10,693 nucleotides of DNA from Candidatus Nitrosopumilus sp. GTDB lineage: Archaea > Thermoproteota > Nitrososphaeria > Nitrososphaerales > Nitrosopumilaceae. Where the stretch lies: assembly GCA_030637455.1 (NCBI GenBank), contig DAOWGL010000187.1, positions 1 to 10,693 of the forward strand, given 5' to 3'. The notes below the pieces were generated by a model. It had not been told where the DNA came from, ran no database searches, and saw nothing but the letters and a program-made list of their open reading frames with translations. Below, piece by piece: positions 1 through 10,693 of this stretch. The translations under genes were made by a program, and so were the position numbers. How positions within the stretch are numbered: position 1 is the first letter of the stretch; every line of letters begins with the position of its first letter.

Positions 1-689
1 TGATGGGCTGGATGCCTACTGCAATTGATCTATCCAGCTGGAATAGCTTGTGGACTATAGAGAGAATGAAACAAACAAACTACAAGCCAAAATTAAAAGA
101 AACACTACTAGAGTTTAGATTAGCTTATTTGATTACTGGAATTCTTGCTGTAATGTTTGTAGTACTTGGTTCATTCATATTTTATGGGTCTGGTGAAGAA
201 CTACCCAACAATAATTCTGATTTTGCAAACAAGATTGTTACCCTGTATACTAATACAATTGGGGACTGGAGTTACATCATAATTGCAGCTTCGGCATTTA
301 CTGTAATGTTTGGAACAATCATTGCAGTATTTGATGGATATTCAAGGTCATTACAAAGAACTGTAGAGTTGATTTTTACTAAAAAAGAGGACAAAATACG
401 CACAAAATTCCGTACATTTTATGTTATTTTTTTAATTATTCTAGCATCTGGATCATTTGTAATTATTTCACAATTTCAAGATAACTTGAAAGAGTTAGTT
501 GACTTTGCAACTGTTTTGTCATTTGTAATTGCGCCTGTTATTGCAATTTTTAATTTCAGACTTGTAACTGGTAAATTTTTAGATAAAGAGCATCAACCAT
601 CTGTTTTGTTGAAAATTCTGAGTTTTACAGGAATTGTTTTCCTAATTGGCTTTGCCGCTTTCTTTTTAATTACCAAATTTTTACTATAA
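1..689 (+). CDS. Nramp-like divalent metal transporter, C-terminal part (cut by left edge)
   Basis: This is the C-terminal half of a polytopic membrane protein whose 5' end lies outside the window; the frame is open to base 1, so the ATG at position 3 is probably internal. The visible 228 residues begin with GWMPTAIDLSSW. I align this with helix 6 of Nramp-type transporters, where a Met-Pro pair contributes the metal-binding methionine. The His that normally follows Met-Pro is Thr here. Five more hydrophobic segments follow at about residues 39-61, 89-111, 139-157, 167-188 and 203-227, matching helices 7-11 of an 11-helix Nramp fold. The stretch GDWSYIIIAASAF and then FDGYSRS resembles the GDWAY...LD.SPRA region I recall from bacterial relatives. 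The likely role is proton-linked uptake of Mn2+ or Fe2+ across the cytoplasmic membrane. A ferritin gene lies downstream on the same strand. The family call is by motif memory, and the substrate is not established. Confidence 0.72.
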   Translation, partial: MGWMPTAIDLSSWNSLWTIERMKQTNYKPKLKETLLEFRLAYLITGILAVMFVVLGSFIFYGSGEELPNNNSDFANKIVTLYTNTIGDWSYIIIAASAFTVMFGTIIAVFDGYSRSLQRTVELIFTKKEDKIRTKFRTFYVIFLIILASGSFVIISQFQDNLKELVDFATVLSFVIAPVIAIFNFRLVTGKFLDKEHQPSVLLKILSFTGIVFLIGFAAFFLITKFLL

Positions 690-691
690 TT

Positions 692-817
692 GTGGACAAA
701 CTTTATTGGCTTTTGATTGCATCTGTAGCGATTGTAATTTCTGGTTCAGCAGCTTGTGTAAAACCATTTACAGCAGAAAAACTTCAAAATCTGGGATGGG
801 GGATACTTGTTAACTGA
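692..817 (+). CDS. Small secreted or membrane-anchored peptide with CV-x3-TA-x6-G motif (41 aa)
   Basis: A GTG-started ORF begins two bases after the stop of the transporter gene and encodes 41 residues. Residues 5-17 (YWLLIASVAIVIS) form a hydrophobic segment preceded by Lys3, as in a signal peptide or membrane anchor. The rest contains ACVKPFTAEKLQNLGWGI. That motif (CV, three residues, TA, six residues, G) is one I recall from many thaumarchaeal secreted proteins, and it recurs with identical spacing near the N-terminus of the next gene (ICVYDITAQNWVRMGI). The tight junction to the gene upstream suggests co-transcription. The ORF lies in a different frame from both neighbours, so it is not simply an extension of either. 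Function is unknown. The Cys22 that follows SGSAA could be a lipid-modified or disulfide-forming residue, but this is inference. Alternatively it could be the remnant of a longer secreted protein. Confidence 0.6.
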   Translation: MDKLYWLLIASVAIVISGSAACVKPFTAEKLQNLGWGILVN

Positions 818-833
818 TTTACATTTAGATAAA

Positions 834-2657
834 TTGAAATTACAATATCTGATTTTACCATTAATTTTTCTGACCTTTGTTTCTAGCTATGCATATGCGA
901 TAGATTATGATTTAGAATGTCCTGAAAATAAAGTCGTTATTGTTAGAACAACTAATCCTAATCCAATTTGTGTTTATGATATTACTGCACAAAATTGGGT
1001 TAGAATGGGAATAGCTGAATTTGTCGATACAACACCTGAAGAAACTGTTGATACAACAACTGAAGAAACTGTTGATACAACACTTGAAGAACCCGTAGAA
1101 ACTTTACCTGAAGATAGTGGAGATAACTTGGCTGATGTTTTAGGTTTTTTCTCTTCATTAATTTCAGAATTTCATTATGATAATGTCCCTGATGAACTCT
1201 CACGCGCCCAATCTTATCTAGTTACATTTTCAAATGGAGAATTCACCGAACCCCTAACAATTCAAACATTCAACAAGGTCCAACCTGGTGATGGGGAACA
1301 TCTCATTCCATCATTACAGCAATCAGGATTTGACACCTTCTTTTCTTTATCCTCAACTCCAAGCAAAGACAAGATTGAATTTTACAACCTTATTGCACAA
1401 ACCATCAATGCTGGAAAAGATCCTGAACTATTTGATGTAGGTATAGATGTTTTAGCTGGTGATAATTCAACAATTCTTACAATAAACTATACAAATTGTG
1501 AAATCACAGATTATCTGCCTTTTACACAAGATTTCCTTCTCTTCTATCAATTCTCAGAAACAATCGGTCGTGAAATTAGAGATAATGCAACTATCTACTG
1601 TGCTGGTATAGACTTGGAAGTTTACAATGAAGAACACCAAAAAATTATTTCTAAAGAACAATTACCATACTTGCCCACTTCTGATGAAAGTATCACAGGA
1701 TATGTAGTTCATTTTAACGGTCCTGATTTTGATGGCTTGCAAACTTTTGAAACATTTTCTGATTTTTCACCATCCATCAATCTTATTGAGACTGAATATG
1801 ATGCAATAACAATACCTGGAAATCCATTGGGTTCAAAACCTCAATTCTTTTTAGAATCTCTTCCAAGTGTTGACAAATTGACACTGTACAAGTATTATGC
1901 AATGTACATAAATCCAGGTCAGCCTCCAAAATCAGTTGATGTAAGTATTGATTTGATTACTGGCGATAAAACCATTTTACAAAGATGGAATTATGCTGAT
2001 TGTTATTTCTATGAACATAATACATTTCTAGAAGACAGCTTTCTAAAATTCCAATATTCAGAAAAACCTGGACCTGAGATTAGAGATAGAAGTGAATTTA
2101 CTTGTGCAGGAAATAATATAGAAATTCATGGAGATGAACCGATACCCACATTTCCAATAAGAGATTTAAAAAACAATGAACAAAAATCTGCCATCGTCCC
2201 AAATATTGCTAAACTAGGGGATAGAGTTGACTCTTTTCGAATTTTTGCTTTTGAGGGAGAACTTACACAAATTCATTCTACAGAAAACTTGCAAAAATTT
2301 GAAACAATTCGAAAAGATCGTGGTTCCTTAACTCCTGTAAATCATGTAAAACAATTTGATCATGGATTTATGATTGAGTCCTTACCTGAAAAAAATAAAG
2401 CATCTTTCTACGAATTTATATCTAGATATGTTAATCCTGGAAAGTCTCCTGAGCCTTTTGATGTTTCACTTGATCTGGTAACTGGAGATGACGACGTTCT
2501 TTATAGCGTACAATATGTCAATTGTGGTGCCATTGATTTCATGTGGTATCTTCAACAGGGTTCTTGGTATTACCAGTTCTCTGAAGCAGAAGCTGGTGAA
2601 ATCCGTGAGCGATATATCTTTTATTGTGAAGGATTTGGCTTGGATTTCCCTGAATAA
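834..2657 (+). CDS. Secreted protein with Thr/Glu linker and three copies of a two-cysteine domain
   Basis: The product has about 607 residues. The TTG at 834 gives MKLQYLILPLIFLTFVSSYAYA, a textbook Sec signal peptide with likely cleavage after AYA. A longer frame from TTG 807 adds nine residues with two Asp and is less convincing, although a G-run precedes it. Mature residues 24-60 contain Cys29 and Cys46 with the motif ICVYDITAQNWVRMG. Residues 64-95 are an acidic Thr/Glu repeat linker. Three homologous domains follow at about residues 127-264, 289-433 and 467-605. Each has a pattern like SLPS.DK...Y, then NPG or NAG, then (V/L)D(V/L).(A/T)GD, then a Tyr-x2-Cys, then YQFSE...EIR and a final Cys-x-G. 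The cysteines fall at 222/256, 390/424 and 564/598, always 34 apart, which implies one disulfide per domain. No C-terminal membrane anchor is seen. I do not recognise the domain. An extracellular binding or cell-surface role is inference. Confidence 0.85.
   Translation: MKLQYLILPLIFLTFVSSYAYAIDYDLECPENKVVIVRTTNPNPICVYDITAQNWVRMGIAEFVDTTPEETVDTTTEETVDTTLEEPVETLPEDSGDNLADVLGFFSSLISEFHYDNVPDELSRAQSYLVTFSNGEFTEPLTIQTFNKVQPGDGEHLIPSLQQSGFDTFFSLSSTPSKDKIEFYNLIAQTINAGKDPELFDVGIDVLAGDNSTILTINYTNCEITDYLPFTQDFLLFYQFSETIGREIRDNATIYCAGIDLEVYNEEHQKIISKEQLPYLPTSDESITGYVVHFNGPDFDGLQTFETFSDFSPSINLIETEYDAITIPGNPLGSKPQFFLESLPSVDKLTLYKYYAMYINPGQPPKSVDVSIDLITGDKTILQRWNYADCYFYEHNTFLEDSFLKFQYSEKPGPEIRDRSEFTCAGNNIEIHGDEPIPTFPIRDLKNNEQKSAIVPNIAKLGDRVDSFRIFAFEGELTQIHSTENLQKFETIRKDRGSLTPVNHVKQFDHGFMIESLPEKNKASFYEFISRYVNPGKSPEPFDVSLDLVTGDDDVLYSVQYVNCGAIDFMWYLQQGSWYYQFSEAEAGEIRERYIFYCEGFGLDFPE
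1023..1118 (+). repeat. 24-bp tandem repeat encoding Thr/Glu linker
   Basis: Four in-frame 24-base units at 1023, 1047, 1071 and 1095 encode VDTTPEET, VDTTTEET, VDTTLEEP and VETLPEDS. The first three are close at the DNA level and the fourth is diverged. This is an acidic, Thr-rich, probably disordered spacer between the N-terminal motif region and the triplicated domains. The threonines could be glycosylated outside the cell, which is inference. Confidence 0.85.
1212..2648 (+). repeat. Three diverged copies of a ~140-residue protein domain
   Basis: The copies lie at about 1212-1625, 1698-2132 and 2232-2648 within the secreted-protein gene. They are recognised at the protein level, not as DNA repeats. 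Shared blocks in order are SLPS/E.DK or SS.PS.DK, FY or YKYY, (I/V)N(P/A)GK.PE.FDV, D(L/V).(T/A)GD, Y.(N/D)C, YQFSE...(R)EIR(D/E) and (Y/T)C(A/E)G. Cysteine spacing is exactly 34 residues in all three. The second copy has a longer insertion after its first strand. Confidence 0.85.
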
Positions 2658-2663
2658 TCTTGA

Positions 2664-2677
2664 GAAACTATTTTAAG
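2664..2677 (+). promoter_or_regulatory. Predicted BRE/TATA box for ferritin
   Basis: The sequence gaaactattttaag has a purine-rich BRE-like start followed by a TATA-like core (tattttaa) centred about 25 bases before the ferritin ATG. That spacing predicts transcription starting at or next to the start codon, giving a leaderless mRNA. No separate iron-regulator operator was identified around it. Confidence 0.5.
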
Positions 2678-2697
2678 AATAATTTCCAAGTATCTTT

Positions 2698-3210
2698 ATG
2701 AAAATTTCCCCTAAAATGAAAAAAGCTCTTAATGATCAAGTTACCCTTGAAGCCTCTGCATCAAACAGTTACTTGGCAATGGCATCATGGTGTGAAGTTA
2801 TTGGATATCAAGGAGCTGCAGACTATTTCTATGTGCAATCAGATGAGGAGAGAACTCATATGCTAAAAATTGTTCATTATCTAAACGATATGGGGGCAAC
2901 TGCAAGTATCCCTGCAACAAAAGCACCTCTAAGCTCTTACAAATCACTTGAGGGATTAATCAAAACTGCTCTAAAAAATGAACAGACAGTTACAAAAGCA
3001 ATTCACAAAATGGTAGAGATTACACAAAAAGAAAAAGATCATTCCACATATGCATTTCTAGAATGGTTTGTAAACGAACAAGTTCAAGAAGAAACAAAGT
3101 TTGAAACAATTTTACAAAAGTTTGATTTGTTAGGACGAGACAAGTTAGCAATCCATGAAATTGACAAGATTCTTGCAACAGATGCCGCATCTCCTGAAAC
3201 TGCTGCCTAG
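2698..3210 (+). CDS. ftn: Ferritin (non-haem, FtnA-like)
   Basis: The 170-residue product has the length of a ferritin subunit, a cytoplasmic 24-mer that oxidises Fe2+ and stores it as a ferric mineral core. Using E. coli FtnA as guide with a one-residue offset, all ferroxidase ligands are present: Glu18, Glu51, His54, Glu95, Gln128 and Glu131. Tyr25 is also conserved, and Glu50 and Glu127 match residues of the third iron site. The pattern DEERTHM carries the Glu-x2-His pair. There is no C-terminal bacterioferritin-type extension and no haem-ligand pattern. The C-terminal tail (TDAASPETAA) is short and disordered-looking. It has its own predicted promoter and stands alone between a secreted-protein gene and a 110-residue unknown. 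Its location downstream of an Nramp-like transporter fits a local theme of iron or manganese handling. Confidence 0.93.
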   Translation: MKISPKMKKALNDQVTLEASASNSYLAMASWCEVIGYQGAADYFYVQSDEERTHMLKIVHYLNDMGATASIPATKAPLSSYKSLEGLIKTALKNEQTVTKAIHKMVEITQKEKDHSTYAFLEWFVNEQVQEETKFETILQKFDLLGRDKLAIHEIDKILATDAASPETAA

Positions 3211-3211
3211 A

Positions 3212-3231
3212 AATTATTTTCTAAAATAATT
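3212..3231. promoter_or_regulatory. Inverted repeat after ferritin stop, next to the following promoter
   Basis: Two perfect 9-base arms, AATTATTTT and AAAATAATT, are separated by CT, starting two bases after the ferritin stop codon. The right arm runs into the TATA-like box of the next gene. It could be a dimeric-regulator operator for the downstream gene or part of ferritin transcript termination. All-A/T arms also arise easily by chance in this base composition. Confidence 0.35.
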
Positions 3232-3236
3232 AATAC
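3229..3236 (+). promoter_or_regulatory. Predicted TATA box for the 110-residue protein
   Basis: An attaata-like core lies about 22-29 bases ahead of the ATG at 3258, the spacing expected for a leaderless archaeal transcript. It abuts the inverted repeat at 3212-3231. Confidence 0.4.
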
Positions 3237-3257
3237 TGCATTATTTTCACTCATACC

Positions 3258-3590
3258 ATGACAGTTACTGTAACAAGAAAGCCAGGCGGTATTACTCAAC
3301 TATTCAATACTGAAACTGGTAGAGTCACCTACAAGTGTAGGGCAGAATCTGCATTCATGCTAATTGAAGCATTTGGAGGAATTGTGAAATTTAATCAAAA
3401 AAATGCAATAGCCACTGTCACTGGGCACATTACTGAGATTGAATCCTGTGATGTCTTAAAGAAAGGGCATCCAGAATACAAAGAAGCATTGACTGCTATT
3501 GTTACAGCACACAAAGAATTTGCACAAAGTGTTTCTGATTCATATCAAAAAGAAATTCAGGAACTTGAAAATAAATTATCTGCCCTTTAA
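3258..3590 (+). CDS. Conserved-looking hypothetical protein (110 aa)
   Basis: I do not recognise this protein. It is a soluble 110-residue product without a signal peptide or membrane segment. The first 60 residues look beta-rich (TVTVTRKPGG, RVTYKCRAESAFMLIEAFGG, NAIATVTGHI). The C-terminal half (about residues 68-110) is predicted helical and ends in a short amphipathic stretch, SYQKEIQELENKLSAL, that could form a coiled coil and dimerise. There are two cysteines (27 and 64) but no metal-binding pattern. The ATG start fits the upstream TATA-like box. It ends 30 bases from a converging small gene. Its proximity to ferritin may be only positional. Confidence 0.8.
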   Translation: MTVTVTRKPGGITQLFNTETGRVTYKCRAESAFMLIEAFGGIVKFNQKNAIATVTGHITEIESCDVLKKGHPEYKEALTAIVTAHKEFAQSVSDSYQKEIQELENKLSAL

Positions 3591-3620
3591 TCTTAATAAA
3601 TTAAAAATTCTGAATACCTT

Positions 3621-3794
3621 TTAACCGTAAATCATACAGTGTTCGCATTCACAAACTTCTTGTTCTTTTGATTTCTTTAGGCATTTTTTATGTTGACCTG
3701 CTTGGCATTGTACACAAATCTCTTCAATGTTCTCAACACTTGTGTATTTTTTAGATTGATCAAATCCAAATCCGCCATCTTGTGGTCCAACCAT
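3621..3794 (-). CDS. Small Cys-rich probable zinc-binding protein (57 aa)
   Basis: This 57-codon ORF starts at ATG 3794 and ends at TAA. Its composition is not what a chance ORF would give. Six cysteines are arranged as Cys27-x2-Cys30, Cys38, then Cys48-x-Cys50-x2-Cys53, with His35 and His52 among them. This is the layout of a small treble-clef or zinc-ribbon-like protein that binds one or two zinc ions. The N-terminus (MVGPQDGGFGFDQSKKYTS) is Gly-rich and probably flexible. The middle is basic (HKKCLKKSK). It sits 34 bases downstream of the 99-residue gene on the same strand and may be co-transcribed with it. No membrane segment is present. Function is unknown. RNA or protein binding is a guess from the fold type. 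Confidence 0.75.
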   Translation of the reverse strand: MVGPQDGGFGFDQSKKYTSVENIEEICVQCQAGQHKKCLKKSKEQEVCECEHCMIYG

Positions 3795-3828
3795 ATATTT
3801 ACTAAATTAATGCTCTATTTCTACTTCA

Positions 3829-4128
3829 CTAATTGATTGCTGATTTTATTGCTTTTTGTAAATCTATTTTATGGGTTTCAATTATTCCTCGTATTTCAAA
3901 AGTATCTACATATCCTCCAGCTGATGCTCTAGTTGCTTTGAGGAGATAATGCAGAGAACCCTCCTCAATTTTTCCTACATAATACCCGTAGAGAAAATCT
4001 GCTTCATCTTTACATTTCCAAATTTGTTTGATTGCTGGGAATGTTTGTTTAATTTCAGTGGGAATTTCTTGAATTCTTCTTTGAATGTATTGATCTAATG
4101 ATTTTCTAATTGTTGAATCTTGAAACAA
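3829..4128 (-). CDS. Hypothetical protein (99 aa), TTG start
   Basis: I do not recognise this protein. TTG 4128 is the only common start codon between the upstream in-frame TAA and the body of the protein, and no internal Met exists. The product is soluble and mixed alpha/beta. Residues 8-36 look helical and basic, a core follows with KCKDEADFLYGYYVGKIEEG, and the final segment (about 80-99) is helical and Lys-rich. There is no signal peptide, membrane helix or metal motif. It lies 28 bases after the 48-residue membrane protein gene and 34 bases before the Cys-rich gene, all on the minus strand, which suggests a three-gene unit. A TATA-like ctaaaatg lies about 25-32 bases before its start, overlapping the stop codon of the gene ahead, so it may also have its own promoter. 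Confidence 0.75.
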   Translation of the reverse strand: MFQDSTIRKSLDQYIQRRIQEIPTEIKQTFPAIKQIWKCKDEADFLYGYYVGKIEEGSLHYLLKATRASAGGYVDTFEIRGIIETHKIDLQKAIKSAIN

Positions 4129-4156
4129 CTCTAAATCTTATTGGTAACCTTGCATT

Positions 4157-4303
4157 TTAGTCCTTTTTCTTTTTGTCTTTAACTTCGTCTGGCTTGTCCC
4201 ACATGTGCATTGTACCTCTAACCATGAAAGACCCTACAATTATGGCAACTAATCCTGTAACTATGAATAAAAAGAATTTTCCAATATCTTTGATACTTGC
4301 CAC
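4157..4303 (-). CDS. Single-pass small membrane protein (48 aa)
   Basis: A GTG-started ORF encodes MASIKDIGKFFLFIVTG followed by LVAIIVGSFMV, giving one membrane helix at about residues 9-28. After it comes RGTMHMWDKPDEVKDKKKKD, a strongly charged tail with a final Lys run. The membrane-helix-plus-charged-tail pattern, an upstream stop that limits the frame, and a TATA-like AATTATAATT 23-32 bases ahead of the GTG together support a real gene. By the positive-inside tendency the Lys-rich tail would face the cytoplasm. It is divergent from a second micro-membrane protein at 4387-4485, with an 83-base shared intergenic region. Function is unknown. Accessory subunits of membrane complexes often look like this, but nothing nearby names a partner. 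Confidence 0.65.
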   Translation of the reverse strand: MASIKDIGKFFLFIVTGLVAIIVGSFMVRGTMHMWDKPDEVKDKKKKD

Positions 4304-4325
4304 ATCATATTCAGTTAATCTATCT

Positions 4326-4335
4326 AATTATAATT
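4326..4335 (-). promoter_or_regulatory. Predicted TATA box for the 48-residue membrane protein
   Basis: AATTATAATT, itself palindromic, lies 23-32 bases ahead of the GTG at 4303. That spacing predicts a leaderless minus-strand transcript. Confidence 0.45.
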
Positions 4336-4357
4336 GTCTGAGATGGGCAATTAGATT

Positions 4358-4365
4358 CAATAAAG
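4358..4365 (+). promoter_or_regulatory. Predicted TATA box for the 32-residue membrane protein
   Basis: The sequence caataaag lies 22-29 bases ahead of the ATG at 4387, consistent with a leaderless plus-strand transcript diverging from the minus-strand promoter at 4326-4335. Confidence 0.4.
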
Positions 4366-4386
4366 AGTCTGAATAATTTTTCTTAA

Positions 4387-4485
4387 ATGTCTAAAATTAA
4401 ACAGGTTGCCGCCTGGATAGCAATTATTGGTAGTGTAATTGGATTTTTCTTCTTCTCAATTGAGATGGCTGAATTCATGCGATAA
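4387..4485 (+). CDS. Micro-membrane protein (32 aa)
   Basis: An ATG-to-TAA ORF encodes MSKIKQVAAW, IAIIGSVIGFFFFS and IEMAEFMR in sequence. Two Lys residues at the N-terminus precede one uninterrupted membrane helix at about residues 7-24, and a short acidic/Met-containing tail follows. The Lys-rich start predicts an N-in orientation. A TATA-like box is correctly placed upstream, and the next gene has its own box starting just after this stop. Single-helix proteins of this size are typically small subunits or regulators of membrane complexes, but the partner cannot be read from the sequence. The frame is short enough that chance is possible. The coherent helix, polar flanks and promoter spacing argue for a real gene. 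Confidence 0.55.
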   Translation: MSKIKQVAAWIAIIGSVIGFFFFSIEMAEFMR

Positions 4486-4490
4486 TATGA

Positions 4491-4500
4491 AAACTAAATA
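4491..4500 (+). promoter_or_regulatory. Predicted BRE/TATA box for the PNPOx-like gene
   Basis: The sequence aaactaaata lies 24-33 bases ahead of the GTG at 4524. A BRE-like aaac leads into a taaata core. Its position supports GTG 4524 as the start of a leaderless message. Confidence 0.45.
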
Positions 4501-4523
4501 CGTTCAATTTTAAAATATTATTT

Positions 4524-4964
4524 GTGATAACTAACGAAATTAAAGATTTTCTAAATTTGCAAAAACTTGGATATGTTGCAACTGTCTCCTCTGATGGAAA
4601 ACCAAACATCTCTCCAAAGGGCACTATTATTGGATGGTCCTCTGAGAGACTTGCTTTTGCAGATATTCGTTCACCTGACACCATGAAAAATCTAATTGAT
4701 AATCCTAATGTGGAAATCAATGTAATTGATACTCTTCTTCGTAAAGGATACTTGTTTCAAGGTAAGGCTAGAATTCTACAAGATGGTACACTATACCAAG
4801 AAATTCTAAATCATTATAGACAAAATGGGGTTAAGAGTCCCATAAACTCAATCGTACTAGTAGATGTTTCCTGTATCTCTGATGTAATTTCACCTTTATA
4901 TGATCTTGGAATTTCTGAGGATGAAATAAAATCAAAATGGCAAAAGCATTTTTCCACTCTATGA
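4524..4964 (+). CDS. Pyridoxamine 5'-phosphate oxidase-like split-barrel flavoprotein
   Basis: The 146-residue product has the opening of the FMN-binding split-barrel superfamily: an N-terminal helix (EIKDFLNLQ), then LGYVATVSSDGKPNISPKGT at about residues 15-34. Next come LAFADIRSPDTMKNLIDNPNVEINVID (43-69) and GYLFQGKARIL (75-85). These are the barrel strands that normally line the flavin phosphate site. Members of this size are usually cytosolic homodimers. The superfamily includes pyridoxamine phosphate oxidases, F420-dependent reductases and haem-handling proteins. This protein is too short and lacks the C-terminal domain of a true PdxH, so cofactor (FMN or F420) and substrate are undetermined. 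GTG start with a promoter box at the expected distance. Its last six bases overlap the convergent coiled-coil gene. Confidence 0.85.
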   Translation: MITNEIKDFLNLQKLGYVATVSSDGKPNISPKGTIIGWSSERLAFADIRSPDTMKNLIDNPNVEINVIDTLLRKGYLFQGKARILQDGTLYQEILNHYRQNGVKSPINSIVLVDVSCISDVISPLYDLGISEDEIKSKWQKHFSTL

Positions 4965-5735
4965 TTTATCAAGTGATTGTGTAGTTTGTTTAAGATTTTC
5001 TAAATCTTTTTTTGTTTTTTCATGTTCTGCTCTTTCTTTTTCTAATAATGATTGAACAGTCTCTAATTCTTTCAGTGTTGTGTTGAGTTTTGATTTTAAA
5101 GAGCCTACTACTGCACTTGCAGCCTCGATAATCCCTGCAGAACTTTTCTGACTTTTATTATCTACTCCGATGAATTCTTTTTCAGATGTTGTGAGAACAC
5201 TGGTATCCTCAAAAGTATCTTTTTTATCCAATTCTTGTTTTGCATTGTATAATCTAGAGTTTGCCTCCTCTAATTCCTTTTCAACTTCTACTTGTTGTTT
5301 TTTAATATTGTGTAATGTTGCCTGCTCTTTTTCAAGTTGCTCTTTAATTTCATCATGTTTTTTTGTAAATCCATCCAACTCTTCCTTTATTTTTGAATGA
5401 TCCCCCTCTGTCTTGTTGAATTTTTCTACTGATTTTGAATCTTTGATTAATTCTGTTTTTTTGGCTTTCTCTCTTGTTTCTCTGTATTCTCGCTGAATGA
5501 TATCTAGTTCCATCTTTTTTTGATTAAGTTCTTTTTTTACTAACATTAAACTGCCAACTGTTGAACCGTATTCTTCTTTGACAGTGGTAATCCTTTGAGT
5601 GATTTCATCTAACTCTGTTTGTTTTTCTCTGAATTCTTTTTGTAATTTTTCAACTTCCTCTTCAAGTTCTGTTTTCAGGGTTGTCTCTGCACTGAAATCT
5701 TGCGTATCTTCTTTCTTTTTACCAAAAAATCCCAT
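4959..5735 (-). CDS. Long coiled-coil protein (258 aa)
   Basis: After an N-terminal MGFFGKKKEDTQDF, residues of about 16-170 are almost entirely charged heptad sequence rich in Glu, Lys, Leu and Gln. A break at about 171-205 contains TFEDTSVLTTSEKEFIGVDNKSQKSS, with a short Ala/Val/Gly-rich helix SAGIIEAASAVVGSL at about 199-213. A second coiled coil covers about 214-250. There is no membrane segment, ATP-binding motif or SMC hinge/head, so it is not an SMC or Rad50 fragment. A structural, scaffold or chromosome/cell-division role is possible but unproven. It is the last gene of the minus-strand run elp3-lysS-small membrane protein, 36 bases after the preceding stop, and converges tail-to-tail with the PNPOx-like gene, with overlapping stop codons. 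Coiled-coil composition makes homology searches noisy. Confidence 0.85.
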   Translation of the reverse strand: MGFFGKKKEDTQDFSAETTLKTELEEEVEKLQKEFREKQTELDEITQRITTVKEEYGSTVGSLMLVKKELNQKKMELDIIQREYRETREKAKKTELIKDSKSVEKFNKTEGDHSKIKEELDGFTKKHDEIKEQLEKEQATLHNIKKQQVEVEKELEEANSRLYNAKQELDKKDTFEDTSVLTTSEKEFIGVDNKSQKSSAGIIEAASAVVGSLKSKLNTTLKELETVQSLLEKERAEHEKTKKDLENLKQTTQSLDKS

Positions 5736-5771
5736 ATCTGTATCTGCTTTTTTCCAAAAGATGAACCTTTC

Positions 5772-5972
5772 TTATTCTTTTTTGACTCGCCATCTAAAGA
5801 ATTTCAGATAAAATCCGATACTCCCTATGGCAATTCCTGCAATCCATGCAATTGGGCCCAACCCTGTCTTGGCTGTAGCCTCTTGTGGGGCAAGAAATAG
5901 CAATAATGCCCCTAGAATGATTAATGCAAACCCTCCACTGTTCTTTGATCTGTTATGTTCTCCGTGAACCAT
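5772..5972 (-). CDS. Small two-helix membrane protein (66 aa)
   Basis: The product starts with a polar MVHGEHNRSKNSGG. Two membrane helices follow at about residues 15-29 (FALIILGALLLFLAP) and 39-58 (GPIAWIAGIAIGSIGFYLKF), and the protein ends in a basic RWRVKKE. The helical hairpin with a basic end predicts N and C termini both inside. Its ATG lies two bases after the lysS stop codon, so translation is probably coupled to lysS and the genes form one operon. I do not recognise a family. The arrangement looks like thaumarchaeal small membrane proteins of unknown role. Confidence 0.82.
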   Translation of the reverse strand: MVHGEHNRSKNSGGFALIILGALLLFLAPQEATAKTGLGPIAWIAGIAIGSIGFYLKFFRWRVKKE

Positions 5973-5974
5973 GA

Positions 5975-7564
5975 TTAAACATACTCTGAAAGTGTCTTTG
6001 CCACTTGCTTTCGTCCAATGTCTGAAATGAATGGGCCTATTTTTGGTCCTCTTGAGGTTCCAAGTATGATTTGATATAATATTTTAAAGAAATCTTTTGG
6101 TTGAACATCATTTGCTTTTGCAATTTGGTAAATTGTATTTTGAATATCTTCTAGTTCTTCCTCACCGTTTAATGCCTCTACAAGTAATTTCAATGCCTTT
6201 TTTGCAGTATCATCCAAATCAACTTGAATTTTTTCTTGTACATCAAATTCATTTGAATAGTTTCCTGCAAGTTCAATGAGTTTTTCTATTTCTGGTTCTG
6301 GATTTTTAATCACGCCATAATCTAATAATTTTTTCATGACTCGCTCACTTCTATTTTCTTTGAAAATTTTTGCTAATTCCATTAACAGTCTATAGTTAAC
6401 ATGTGTGCTTGATTGTTTTGGAGGGTTTAAGAGATTTACATATTCATACAATCCTTTATTTTTTATCAACTTTGCTTGGTTGTCTACTTTGATTCGTCCA
6501 AAGTAGATATCCTCTAATTCATTATATTCACTCATCAATCCTGGAATATCATCAAATCCTAATTCTCTTGCACCTGTAATTCTCTTGTAAAGTAACAATA
6601 GGATTGATTTTGGACTGCCAAACTCTAGCCATTTCTGTGCCGTGATTACATTTCCTAAAGATTTTGAAATCTTTTTTCCACCTTTATCTAAAAACATCTC
6701 ATACTTTACATGGTGAGGGTGTGGACATTGTAAAATTTCATCTGCAACCCAATCATTTACTTTAACTGAATCCATGATATCTTTTCCATACGCTTCAAAT
6801 CTGATATCAAATGCTGTCCATCTTGCTGCAAATTCTACTTTCCAGGCTAATTTTCCAAGGTCTTTACCGATATCAGCCTCGCCAACATGACCGCATCCTT
6901 TGACCATCTTTGAGCCAATCTCTGTATCGTGACAAGAATATTTTACTTTCTTTTCATCAGCAATGTATTCAGAAGCTTCTGCTGTGTAGAGACGATTACA
7001 GTTAACACAAACCGGAAAATATGGTAAATATTTTTGATATTTTTCTTGTCCTACCAATTCTGAAATTTTATCTCCAATCTTTGCACTGTTTTGTAGAATT
7101 GTGTGGATTTGATCTTTTAGTAATCCTTGTTTGTAAGTGTCAACTGCTCTTCTAAATTCATATTTTATTCCCACTTTGTCTAATCCATCTAATAGGATAC
7201 TGCTCATGTGCATTCCGTAAGAATCATGACATCCATAAGGATCTGGGATTAACGATACTGGTTTTGCAATATGTTCTTCTAAACCAAACTCTTGCATTCC
7301 TTCAGGAATTTTTCTTAATCCATCAAGATCATCTGAATATGCAATTAGTTCTGATTTGTATCCTAAATTCTCTAATGCAAGTTTAACTCCGTATGCTCTT
7401 ACTGCATCTCCCAAACTTCCAATGTGTGGGATTCCAGAAGCGCCTAACCCACTTTCAACTCTAAGTAGATCTGTGTTTCTTCCTAGGGCTTTTTCTCGTT
7501 CGAGTAATTCAGAAGCTAATTTGTCAATCCAAGTTCCTTTTCCGATAATTTTTTGTTCTACCAT
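5975..7564 (-). CDS. lysS: Lysyl-tRNA synthetase, class I
   Basis: The 529-residue product charges tRNA-Lys with lysine using ATP in the cytoplasm. It is the class I LysRS found in most archaea and a few bacteria, unrelated to the class II bacterial/eukaryotic enzyme. The Rossmann catalytic domain has the HIGH signature as HIGS (residues 47-50, in GIPHIGSLGDAVR), and the KMSKS loop appears as KISKS (298-302). Between them, Cys186-x2-Cys189, Cys211 and Cys224 form the zinc-binding insertion typical of the family. Residues from about 350 on are the helical anticodon-binding region, ending in a conserved GTSRGPKIGPFI. Length is normal and no key motif is missing. The ATG lies 9 bases after the elp3 stop, so it is the second gene of a probable operon with elp3 in front and the 66-residue membrane protein behind. 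Confidence 0.97.
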   Translation of the reverse strand: MVEQKIIGKGTWIDKLASELLEREKALGRNTDLLRVESGLGASGIPHIGSLGDAVRAYGVKLALENLGYKSELIAYSDDLDGLRKIPEGMQEFGLEEHIAKPVSLIPDPYGCHDSYGMHMSSILLDGLDKVGIKYEFRRAVDTYKQGLLKDQIHTILQNSAKIGDKISELVGQEKYQKYLPYFPVCVNCNRLYTAEASEYIADEKKVKYSCHDTEIGSKMVKGCGHVGEADIGKDLGKLAWKVEFAARWTAFDIRFEAYGKDIMDSVKVNDWVADEILQCPHPHHVKYEMFLDKGGKKISKSLGNVITAQKWLEFGSPKSILLLLYKRITGARELGFDDIPGLMSEYNELEDIYFGRIKVDNQAKLIKNKGLYEYVNLLNPPKQSSTHVNYRLLMELAKIFKENRSERVMKKLLDYGVIKNPEPEIEKLIELAGNYSNEFDVQEKIQVDLDDTAKKALKLLVEALNGEEELEDIQNTIYQIAKANDVQPKDFFKILYQIILGTSRGPKIGPFISDIGRKQVAKTLSEYV

Positions 7565-7573
7565 GTCTTTTCA

Positions 7574-9160
7574 CTAATTCAATGTCTTGGACATGTATGG
7601 CCCATATAACGAATACCCTAATTTTTGATAATACTCTCTTGTACCAACTGCACTGATCACTAGAAGTTTTTTGGCATCAAACTCTTCTTTAGATATTTTT
7701 TCAGCTTCTTTCATCAAATTCTTTCCTAACCCTGAATGCTGAATTTCATCTTCTTCTTTTTCTCCTAGTTTCAATGACTTTCCATACACGTGGATTTCTC
7801 TTACTATGCATGTATCTTGATTAATTTCATCTCTGTGTGCATCAACACTCGGTTTTCTCAATCTCAAAAACCCGTAAATTGATTCATTCTTGTCCTCATA
7901 TGACAAGAATACTTCTTTTCCGCCAGATGAATCATAATCAATTCGGTTTAATTTTACATCGCCCCCATCTGCTTTGTTGTTAGATAGTCCTGCTTCTCTG
8001 CATCTGATACATTTGCAAGAAAGTCCTTGTTTTGCAAGATTCTGGTGCACGATTTGCCTTAAATTCCCTGATTTTGGACCTGCGATGATTTCTTTTGAAG
8101 AAATCTCTCTTTGAATTCTCATAATTCTTACCCATTTTGGAACGTTTCTTTTAGCTTCTGTTAGAACTTTGATCATATCTTCATCAGAATATGGTGTGTA
8201 TTTTCCCTGCTTGTATTCTTCGTATAGTGGAGTATTCTCAATAACTAATGATGGATAAATTTTCAACATGTCTGGACGTAATTGTGGGTCTGAAAACAAT
8301 TTTTTGAAATCTGCAATGTCTCCTTCTGGTGTCATTGTAGGCAAACCTGGCATCATGTGTGCAACTAGTTTGTAACCTGCATCTTTTGAAATTTGAAATG
8401 ATTCTACTACATCATTGTAATCATGTCCTCTGTTGACTATTTTGTAAACTCGCTCTTGTAATGATTGAACTCCAATTTCAATTCTAGTAATCCCATAACT
8501 TAACATCAAATCTACATGTTCTTGTTTACAATAATCTGGCTTTGTTTCAATTGTGAAACCTACATTTCTTATTGCTGCATGTTCGTTGTTTGATTTTGCT
8601 TCCTCTAAATCTTTTGAATCTGTTCCGTTTAATGCATCATAACATGATTTGATAAAATCTTTTTGATAGTCTTTTGGCATGAATAGAAATGTTCCACCTA
8701 CAATGACAATTTCCATTTTAGATGGGTCATGTCCAAATGCAATTAATTTTTCAATCTTTGATGTGATTTGTAATTTAGGATCAAATTCATTTGCAATTGC
8801 ATTTAATGATGATGGTTCTTTTCCTGTATAGCTATTAGGAGAGTTAAATTCAATTCCTCCTGGACAATATGTGCATCTTCCATGAGGACATGCATATGGT
8901 TTTGGCATTAATGCAACCACTGACACTCCTGATGCTGTTTTAGCTGGTTTTCGTATTAACACTTTTTTTAGTTTATCAAAATCTGAATCTTTTACCATTG
9001 ATAATATTTCATAATTTTTTGGAATTCTTTCTAGTGCGTATTTGGTACAAATTTTTATGATCTCTTCTTTTACCTGCTTTTTGCTTGGCTCTTGTATTGT
9101 TAGAAGATTCTGAGTGATCTCATCACATGCTTTGGATACGATGGGGTCAAGCTTATTCAT
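7574..9160 (-). CDS. elp3: Elp3: radical SAM tRNA uridine-34 carboxymethyltransferase/acetyltransferase
   Basis: The 528-residue product is the archaeal single-subunit form of the Elongator catalytic protein. It uses acetyl-CoA and S-adenosylmethionine to place a carboxymethyl group on C5 of wobble U34 in certain tRNAs. The radical SAM cluster motif is Cys91-x4-Cys96-x2-Cys99 (ACPHGRCTYCPGG). Downstream are the barrel segments VIVGGTF (153-159), IEIGVQS (227-233) and HMMPGLPT (268-275). A cysteine group Cys382-x-Cys384-x2-Cys387 fits the zinc site between the two domains. The C-terminal GNAT acetyl-CoA-binding domain shows QHSGLGKNLM (474-483) and the YYQKLGY motif (510-516). The N-terminal helical segment (about 1-60) corresponds to the tRNA-binding region. 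It is the first gene of the run with lysS and has a TATA-like box 22-29 bases before its ATG. Confidence 0.96.
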   Translation of the reverse strand: MNKLDPIVSKACDEITQNLLTIQEPSKKQVKEEIIKICTKYALERIPKNYEILSMVKDSDFDKLKKVLIRKPAKTASGVSVVALMPKPYACPHGRCTYCPGGIEFNSPNSYTGKEPSSLNAIANEFDPKLQITSKIEKLIAFGHDPSKMEIVIVGGTFLFMPKDYQKDFIKSCYDALNGTDSKDLEEAKSNNEHAAIRNVGFTIETKPDYCKQEHVDLMLSYGITRIEIGVQSLQERVYKIVNRGHDYNDVVESFQISKDAGYKLVAHMMPGLPTMTPEGDIADFKKLFSDPQLRPDMLKIYPSLVIENTPLYEEYKQGKYTPYSDEDMIKVLTEAKRNVPKWVRIMRIQREISSKEIIAGPKSGNLRQIVHQNLAKQGLSCKCIRCREAGLSNNKADGGDVKLNRIDYDSSGGKEVFLSYEDKNESIYGFLRLRKPSVDAHRDEINQDTCIVREIHVYGKSLKLGEKEEDEIQHSGLGKNLMKEAEKISKEEFDAKKLLVISAVGTREYYQKLGYSLYGPYMSKTLN

Positions 9161-9181
9161 AAATGATCATTTTGATTTGGA

Positions 9182-9189
9182 CATAAATT
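9182..9189 (-). promoter_or_regulatory. Predicted TATA box for elp3
   Basis: Read on the minus strand, aatttatg lies 22-29 bases ahead of the elp3 ATG at 9160. This suggests that the elp3-lysS run has its own promoter, separate from the basic-protein gene ahead of it. Confidence 0.45.
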
Positions 9190-9193
9190 CGTT

Positions 9194-9199
9194 AAAAAA
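9194..9199 (-). terminator. Possible T-run terminator of the H1-like gene
   Basis: Six consecutive T residues on the minus strand, 18 bases after the stop of the H1-like gene. Archaeal polymerase can terminate at T-runs without a hairpin. The run also lies just upstream of the elp3 TATA box, so it may simply be part of that promoter. Confidence 0.3.
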
Positions 9200-9216
9200 T
9201 TTGGCATATTTGATAT

Positions 9217-9417
9217 CTATTTACGCCTAGTTGTCTTTCTTTTAGCCGTCTTTCTAGCTGGTTTTCTCTTCACTGCCTTTTTCTTTGCTGCACTCTTTCT
9301 AGCTGGTTTTCTCTCAATATTTTTTTTAATATTTTTTAATTTGTTTAACTCTGTTTGAATTCTTTTAATTTCAGCAATCATTTCTGTTTTGAATAAATCA
9401 TTATTTATTTCTGACAT
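9217..9417 (-). CDS. Small protein with histone-H1-like Lys/Arg-rich tail (66 aa)
   Basis: Residues 1-34 (MSEINNDLFKTEMIAEIKRI, then a Leu/Lys/Asn segment) form a likely amphipathic helix that may dimerise as a coiled coil. Residues 36-66 contain 18 Lys/Arg out of 31, no acidic residue, and Ala, Pro, Ser and Thr as the rest. The motif RKPARK occurs twice, 15 residues apart. This resembles the tails of eukaryotic linker histone H1 and of bacterial HU/H1-like proteins that bind DNA or RNA without sequence specificity. A nucleoid-associated role is therefore plausible but inferred. Binding ribosomal or transfer RNA is the alternative. It is an independent gene with its own TATA-like box, followed by the elp3 promoter 56 bases later. 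The ATG start is well placed. Confidence 0.8.
   Translation of the reverse strand: MSEINNDLFKTEMIAEIKRIQTELNKLKNIKKNIERKPARKSAAKKKAVKRKPARKTAKRKTTRRK
9249..9314. repeat. Pair of identical 21-bp direct repeats in the H1-like gene
   Basis: The same 21 bases occur at 9249-9269 and 9294-9314, a period of 45 bases or exactly 15 codons, and encode the two RKPARK blocks. Identity at synonymous positions suggests recent in-frame duplication rather than selection on the protein alone. Confidence 0.8.
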
Positions 9418-9437
9418 GAGTTGACCTGAAGAATTTT

Positions 9438-9444
9438 CTATATG
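9438..9444 (-). promoter_or_regulatory. Predicted TATA box for the H1-like gene
   Basis: On the minus strand, catatag lies 21-27 bases ahead of the ATG at 9417, preceded by an A/T-rich stretch. The spacing fits a leaderless transcript. Confidence 0.4.
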
Positions 9445-9464
9445 ATTTAAGATTTGTTAATAAT

Positions 9465-10693
9465 TTATTCTGGTTTTTGCTCTATGCTTTTTCCAGATAC
9501 AACATCATCACCATTGCCTTTTTTTTGCTCTTTTCTATATTCCATCTTTAACCATATTGGTGTGATGATTGTAGTAACTGCAACCATGATTACAATAGTT
9601 GAATATACTTCAGATGTGAGAATTCCTGCTGTAATTCCAACTCCTGCAACAATCAATCCAACTTCTCCTCTTGAAATCATTCCAATTCCAACTCTCATTC
9701 CTTGTTGTTTGTTTTTCAAAAAGAACATTGCTGGTAATCCACAACCAAAGAACTTTGTTACAACTGCAACTACAATTATCACAGCACTTAACATTAAAAT
9801 TTCCAAATTAACTGCTCTAAAATCTACCTGTGCACCGATGATGGCAAAAAATAATGGTGCAAAAATCAACCCTATCTTGCCAATATAATTTTCTATTTTA
9901 TCAAACACTTTGCTTGTTGATAATGCCATTCCTACTGCAAACGCTCCAACAATTGGGGATAGTCCAATTGATCCTGCAAGCGCCGCCGCACCAAAGAACG
10001 ACGCAGTCGCAATTCCCTCAACACTTCCCTTTGCTTTCCATAGTCTTGGTGTGATAATTTTTGGTATGATTACTACTGCCACGATTAACATTATTGCAAA
10101 GAATCCTAATACTTTCAAAATTGTAATTGTAACGTCTGTAATGTCGATGTTGTCTATTCCTCCATCTGAACCTGCAATTGATGAAACAACTGATAATACT
10201 GCAATTGCTAAAATGTCGTCTACCACTGCTGCACCAATGATTAATCTAGCTTCTGGAGTTTTGATTTTACCAAATTCACTTAATACTTGAATTGAAATTG
10301 CAATACTTGTAGCAGTAAGTGCTGTTGCAATTAACATTGATTGTAATGCATCAAATCCAAACATTTGGAATACTATAAGACCTGCAAAGAATGGGACTAC
10401 TACCCCTAATGTTCCAACTGTAAATGATGCCTTCCCCCCTTTGAGGAATTCTTTTGGTGTCATCTCTAAACCTGCCATGAATAAAATTACAATTGCTCCA
10501 ATCTCTCCTAGTATTCTGATTTCACTGTTGATCTGAAGTAGTTGTTTCCCATCTACTACAAAAAATGTCCCTAATGCAAATGGCCCTACAATCATTCCAG
10601 CTAATAATTCACCTAAAACAATTGGAAGTTTTAATCTGAGGAAAAGTTCTGCCATTAATTTGGCTGCAAAAAGTAGTATTCCTACCCCGATAA
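9465..10693 (-). CDS. CPA2-type cation/proton antiporter (5' end cut by right edge)
   Basis: The frame stays open to the window edge. The 12 codons ahead of the ATG at 10655 read IGVGILLFAAKL, which is the first membrane helix of this family, so that ATG is internal and the true start lies outside. About 408 residues are visible. The segments ELLAGMIVGPFALG and FMAGLEM are typical of Kef/Nap-type monovalent cation:proton antiporters. Numbering from Met 10655, the unwound-helix motif TALTATSIAI lies at 111-120 and the two-Asp motif VVDD has its aspartates at 146-147. The DD pair is the signature of electrogenic CPA2 members. A conserved Arg occurs in SRGEVGLIVAG (328-338). The protein ends in a short charged tail with no TrkA/RCK nucleotide-binding domain, so it is not a full-length Kef channel. 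Likely role: Na+ or K+ extrusion and pH/salt balance. Confidence 0.9.
   Translation of the reverse strand, partial: IGVGILLFAAKLMAELFLRLKLPIVLGELLAGMIVGPFALGTFFVVDGKQLLQINSEIRILGEIGAIVILFMAGLEMTPKEFLKGGKASFTVGTLGVVVPFFAGLIVFQMFGFDALQSMLIATALTATSIAISIQVLSEFGKIKTPEARLIIGAAVVDDILAIAVLSVVSSIAGSDGGIDNIDITDVTITILKVLGFFAIMLIVAVVIIPKIITPRLWKAKGSVEGIATASFFGAAALAGSIGLSPIVGAFAVGMALSTSKVFDKIENYIGKIGLIFAPLFFAIIGAQVDFRAVNLEILMLSAVIIVVAVVTKFFGCGLPAMFFLKNKQQGMRVGIGMISRGEVGLIVAGVGITAGILTSEVYSTIVIMVAVTTIITPIWLKMEYRKEQKKGNGDDVVSGKSIEQKPE

Follow-up and report, generated by a model that had tools for sequence, protein, structure and literature searches.

We analysed a window of 10,693 nt, the whole of contig DAOWGL010000187.1 (positions 1 to 10,693) of the marine, ammonia-oxidising archaeon Candidatus Nitrosopumilus sp. 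(assembly GCA_030637455.1), which carries a gene for a putatively secreted three-domain protein at 807..2657 (+). The three domains are predicted to have the fold of phage tail-tube proteins and of Hcp, and neither a virus nor an injection machine was detected alongside them. TTG 807, from the open reading frame (ORF) list, is the preferred start, and the relative genome G063 has an ATG at the aligned position; residue numbers here count from TTG 834, the start used in the initial annotation. Hydropathy and sequence suggest a signal peptide at 807..899 (+), ending in SSYAYA ahead of ID, and this N-terminus makes export likely. A WING-49-like motif follows (909..1016, +; residues 26-61, cysteines 29 and 46), scoring 20.8 bits against NCBIfam NF058652, just under the cut-off of 22 (the six-domain relative L016 scores 52.1), and then an acidic, variable linker (1023..1124, +; residues 64-97) with a predicted local distance difference test (pLDDT) of 30-49 in residues 71-100 and 43% gaps among relatives. 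Predicted strands and helices together with VIA-align matches delimit domain 1 at 1200..1628 (+; residues 123-265, cysteines 222/256), domain 2 at 1686..2135 (+; residues 285-434, cysteines 390/424) and domain 3 at 2214..2651 (+; residues 461-606, cysteines 564/598), which confirms the initial observation of three domain copies with a cysteine pair each. A 41-codon ORF (692-817, +), which has a GTG start and a hydrophobic beginning, overlaps the preferred start of the gene; its match to the latter half of the WING-49 motif reaches 30.0 bits, over the cut-off of 22. By eye, this frame can be read in G063 as a shorter ORF of some 29 codons that lacks the hydrophobic beginning.

The AlphaFold2 (AF2) model of the protein, built from 60 sequences, has a pLDDT of 79.3 and a predicted template modelling score (pTM) of 0.75. 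Each domain runs in broadly the same order through three strands, a long loop, one strand, a helix and then four more strands, the second of which is long (split in domain 3) and the last short, and the model displays the tail-tube/Hcp hallmark of a beta-sandwich with one flanking helix and a long loop between strands. Phage tail tubes and tail-tip proteins were the top Foldseek matches, all 50 of the VIA-align matches listed were tail, tube, baseplate or Hcp chains, and domains 1, 2 and 3 were each matched by single solved chains. Matches of probability 1.00 in the viral fold library included chains of two-domain and of single-domain size, and some alignments of 500-630 columns reached a template modelling (TM) score to the target of just 0.21-0.35. 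Identity to solved tubes in the structural alignments was about 10%. As far as predicted structure goes, the assignment of the three domains to the tail-tube/Hcp fold is firm, and the earlier view that they could not be placed in a known fold falls. The match to a characterised family that the initial annotation had regarded as telling against a new domain family exists in structure; by sequence, the window protein has none. The cysteines sit suitably in the same model, with cysteine 222 within the long strand 212-232 and cysteine 256 ending strand 247-256. With the two strands taken as a hairpin, a reckoning from the strand limits gives about 257, 425 and 599 as the residues facing 222, 390 and 564, respectively. 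Every pair would lie no more than one residue out of register, so that a disulphide in every domain is plausible. Of 1162 domain envelopes, 1154 retain the pair, and in the six-domain proteins none of the twelve domain cysteines varies across the 48 sequences of A6.

Duplicated tube domains and three-chain pseudo-hexameric rings are described for T5 pb6 and the P74-26 tube protein in PMC5717097 and PMC10034513, and also in the review PMC8718954. The window protein is like both in fusing tube domains in one chain, and its domains 1 and 2 superpose on both; it differs in having three domains (six in some relatives) instead of two, in its predicted export, in the cysteine pair of each domain and in the lack of recognised virus genes around it. 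The two-domain tube proteins of T5, DT57C, P74-26 and SH-Ab15497 superpose jointly on domains 1 and 2 of the predicted model in VIA-align (248-260 residues at 4.3-4.6 Å), and tandem domains stand in this model as ring neighbours of the T5/P74-26 type. For a six-domain relative, the model (1104 residues; pLDDT 86.3, pTM 0.84) gave 50 VIA-align matches listed, in ten of which a single Hcp or tube chain aligns over a range that starts in domain 1 and ends at residues 1033-1037, in domain 6; eight of these ten are at 2.7-4.3 Å. Such matches would be difficult to account for if this portion of domain 6 were not next to domain 1, and the model thus suggests, indirectly, that the two domains adjoin as they would in a closed ring. 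Long, low-probability Foldseek matches of the six-domain model to unrelated large beta proteins were taken as noise. Domain counts of one, three and six, together with the domain 1-domain 6 adjacency, fit six domains per ring. The long loops of domain 2 (1770..1841, +; residues 313-336; pLDDT 44-56 in residues 311-330) and domain 3 (2307..2360, +; residues 492-509; pLDDT 51-63 in residues 491-510) are modelled with low confidence in the single chain, yet they are gapless and conserved like the core (entropy 1.36 and 1.13, respectively; linkers 2.3-2.4). The domain 2 loop has the position of the tail-tube inter-ring loop, and the corresponding loop of the R. capsulatus gene transfer agent tail tube contacts the next ring, according to PMC8718954.

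Relatives were taken as the best 120 of 168, the best 120 of 320 and the best 120 of 134 matches in three protein searches seeded by three-, one- and six-domain queries (357 distinct proteins), and rarer architectures may have escaped. One domain was counted in 120 of them, two in 4, three in 114, four in 8, five in 6 and six in 105; the single-domain copies that the initial annotation proposed to look for in other genomes do exist. A strict filter, which kept proteins whose start is signal-like and whose last domain is complete, passed 236 with one (38), two (1), three (103), five (1) or six (93) domains and failed 121, of which 82 were single-domain. Fourteen of the 18 proteins with two, four or five domains lack a signal-like start, and P0354 and P0357 are cut within the last domain. 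Every one of the 38 closed frames in the loci examined (at least 120 codons, closed at both ends) has one (19), three (14) or six (5) domains, one of the five, in L017, beginning inside its first domain; eight frames truncated by the end of a contig or locus have two to six. The sole closed-frame exception in a further locus set was G162, with 4 + 2 domains in two frames, the first of which runs into unread bases.

In a tree of 154 domains, T1, T2 and T3 each form one clade with full bootstrap support, S6 forms one clade adjoining most S3, and most S1 and S4 share one larger group with T1 and T3. A second triple family of 530-540 residues (L015, L022, L052 and others, in Nitrosopumilus-type genomes) likewise has three domains with a cysteine pair each. 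In a tree of 145 domains, the domains of this second family cluster with single-domain proteins and not with the window's family (100/100). Tripling has therefore probably occurred more than once, independently in the second family, whose own unity against the single-domain proteins has a support of 96/71. Secreted members lie at L015:3303-4913 and L022:3685-5277, and the family has a match in the window's own genome (G000:C173, about 7476) and in many genomes of the genus. Domains 1-5 of one six-domain group fall outside their counterparts and domain 6 among them, as if the array had been rebuilt with six kept; supports around this group are mixed (84-87% bootstrap for some forks in the 145-domain tree, 96-98% in the 154-domain tree).

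Sequence links to tail-tube families are weak for the window protein and visible in its relatives. The window protein itself matches neither PF06841 (Phage_T4_gp19) nor TIGR02241 (phage tail region protein). Six-domain relatives match about positions 61-111 of 134 in PF06841, a six-domain relative matches about 66-116 of 141 in TIGR02241, and one single-domain relative matches 4-110 of 134 in PF06841, under the cut-off. PF06841 was found over its cut-off in two of nine relatives scanned (P0335 and P0343), under it in three of eight (best P0104, 26.8 bits) and under it at six loci which the window protein also found; TIGR02241 reached E 1.5e-9 in L016 (37.7 bits versus a cut-off of 62.4). PF06841 was absent from the 25 families listed in a Pfam scan of 60 relatives, where the commonest match was a weak DUF6291 (31 of 60, best E 0.0002), and a PHROGs scan of 31 domains gave one weak 'tail tube protein' match (E 0.083). 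Other large, apparently secreted proteins, in L029, L030 and L032, contain stretches over the PF06841 cut-off, one after immunoglobulin-like-looking repeats and two near WW motifs.

The named sources among the relatives listed carry Nitrosopumilus, Nitrosarchaeum, Nitrosotalea, other Nitrosopumilaceae, Thaumarchaeota or Nitrososphaeria labels, with the exception of P0250 and P0316, whose Verrucomicrobiae metagenome-assembled genome (MAG) label is probably a binning error. Eleven loci in named genomes all come from MAGs labelled Nitrosopumilus, Nitrosopumilaceae, Thaumarchaeota or Nitrososphaerota. The window protein matches 37 of 200 genomes of its class, only in its own family, and the 31-domain profile matches 33 of 300 genomes of the phylum, again only in that family, at least 11 genomes of which are without a match in the same search. 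The early suggestion of an exported, cysteine-paired repeat domain limited to one lineage stands. None of the papers listed in searches of the open-licence literature deals with exported tail-tube proteins from these archaea.

Genes for a membrane protein, a ferritin-like protein and a PNPOx-like protein surround the gene together with conserved housekeeping genes; presumed lysyl-tRNA synthetase-like and Elp3-like genes are also among the neighbours. A single-domain relative in G058 occupies the same place between membrane protein and ferritin gene, and the syntenic place in a complete relative genome (L021:5684-6373) holds a 229-residue single-domain relative with an N-terminal IPDWVKNNAKWWSEG motif. 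A link to iron, considered for the adjoining ferritin and membrane protein genes, was dropped because the close relative in G063 has other neighbours. With these cellular neighbours, and with no phage or viral-contig match, the gene does not appear to belong to a phage genome; none of 50,697 phage records gave a match, and none of seven candidate stretches in IMG/VR contigs is one. In the own genome (80% complete), the sheath family PF04984 gave one fragment under the cut-off and none over it; of 23 carrier genomes, two had a match and 21 had none, so the protein is probably not part of a known injection system. Hcp of type VI secretion and the tubes of PVC, AFP and AlgoCIS share the single-domain fold of the window domains. 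Those proteins are single-domain and accompany sheath and baseplate genes, and they are not known to carry a signal peptide. A sheath protein is named for Nitrososphaera evergladensis in PMC9230969.

We consider a six-part ring the best reading and rather probable. Several observations weigh against it. Two of the ten matches spanning domains 1 to 6 have a root-mean-square deviation (rmsd) of 5.5 and 8.3 Å, and closure of the ring was read from alignment ranges, that is, from first and last residues only. The seven best Foldseek matches of the window model superpose loosely (rmsd 11-19 Å, TM to target 0.38-0.52), and the domain 1 loop is just moderately conserved (entropy 1.74). Scans of the window protein gave no match in Pfam, PF06841 included, a WING-49 near miss only in NCBIfam, with TIGR02241 unmatched, and nothing convincing in PHROGs, and PDB sequence and profile searches found no solved structure. 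A Pfam scan of 31 single domains found PF06841 in two (best E 0.085), and the profile comparison with true gp19 covers 29 columns only (E 1.5e-4, probability 52%), which is weak support, as is the E of 0.0035 obtained with three single-domain relatives. P0052 (two domains) and P0321 (five) are exceptions among the strictly filtered proteins; both end in letters outside any domain and look frame-shifted at the end. The independent duplication events behind one, three and six are few and six may be a doubled three, so chance could account for the counts, and the domain trees have some weak forks and flagged long branches. G086 has two true gp19-like genes yet no PF04984 match, so the sheath test is not exhaustive.

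The strongest rival holds that the tail-tube fold is real and that ring-making was lost, leaving independent surface modules for adhesion, binding or matrix, with one, three and six as accidents of duplication. It would suit the small number of duplications, in which S3 pairs with S6 and most S1 and S4 group with T1 and T3, a pattern that doubling of a triplet could produce. The separate clades of T1, T2 and T3, whose copies may have specialised, and the lack of a sheath match over the cut-off in the own genome, and of any match in 21 of 23 carriers, would suit it too. We nevertheless find it rather unlikely, as the pTM values of both models argue against loose beads, domains 1 and 2 superpose on fused domain pairs of phage tubes, domains 1 and 6 appear adjacent and the long loops are conserved. 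That the protein belongs to the tube of a contractile injection system, or of a provirus, in this genome is already disfavoured and very improbable: the fold and the true gp19-like genes in G086, G074, G085, G136, G138 and G170 would allow it, whereas the exported N-terminus, the sheath results, the ferritin-like, PNPOx-like and presumed lysyl-tRNA synthetase-like and Elp3-like neighbours, and the phage and IMG/VR searches all oppose it. Least probable of all, by a little, is that a common beta-sandwich plus helix merely makes an unrelated, lineage-specific fold look similar, as the low identity to solved tubes, the modest Foldseek TM-scores and the lack of a PDB profile match might suggest.

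In the six-part ring that we favour, the two cysteines of each domain, on neighbouring antiparallel strands, would form a disulphide stabilising the domain outside the cell, and neighbouring domains of one chain would occupy neighbouring places in the ring, as in T5 and P74-26. With three domains per chain, we infer a ring of two chains; for single-domain relatives the number would be six, and for six-domain relatives one. The rings may lie at the S-layer or outside it and, by way of their long conserved loops, pile up into a tube; such stacking is speculative, as is a role as extracellular conduit, collar or fibre. A tentative proposal, to which we give rather less than an even chance, is that tail-tube proteins were domesticated in ammonia-oxidising archaea and, once exported, form disulphide-stitched six-part rings and probably tubes without a virus or injection machine, with domain number moving only via divisors of six until one polypeptide held the entire ring.

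Some further genes were seen. In two genera the six-domain gene has a patatin-like phospholipase gene nearby (L016:12128-13618 and L017:288-1757). L020:12449-14359 encodes a 636-residue secreted protein with a WING-like motif at its start and a THGHLDH motif, presumably metallo-beta-lactamase-like. The window also encodes a small protein with a very basic KKPARK-like tail (9217-9417, -), and a 297-residue protein of G063 (L020:3969-4862) has many repeats similar to this tail at its end.

If the ring reading is true, marine archaea of an abundant group have turned a virus-type tube protein into a cellular structure that they export, and each six-domain relative would amount to a whole tube ring in a single chain. 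Ring symmetry could then constrain gene duplication. The proteins named here are testable candidates for surface structures of the Nitrosopumilaceae.
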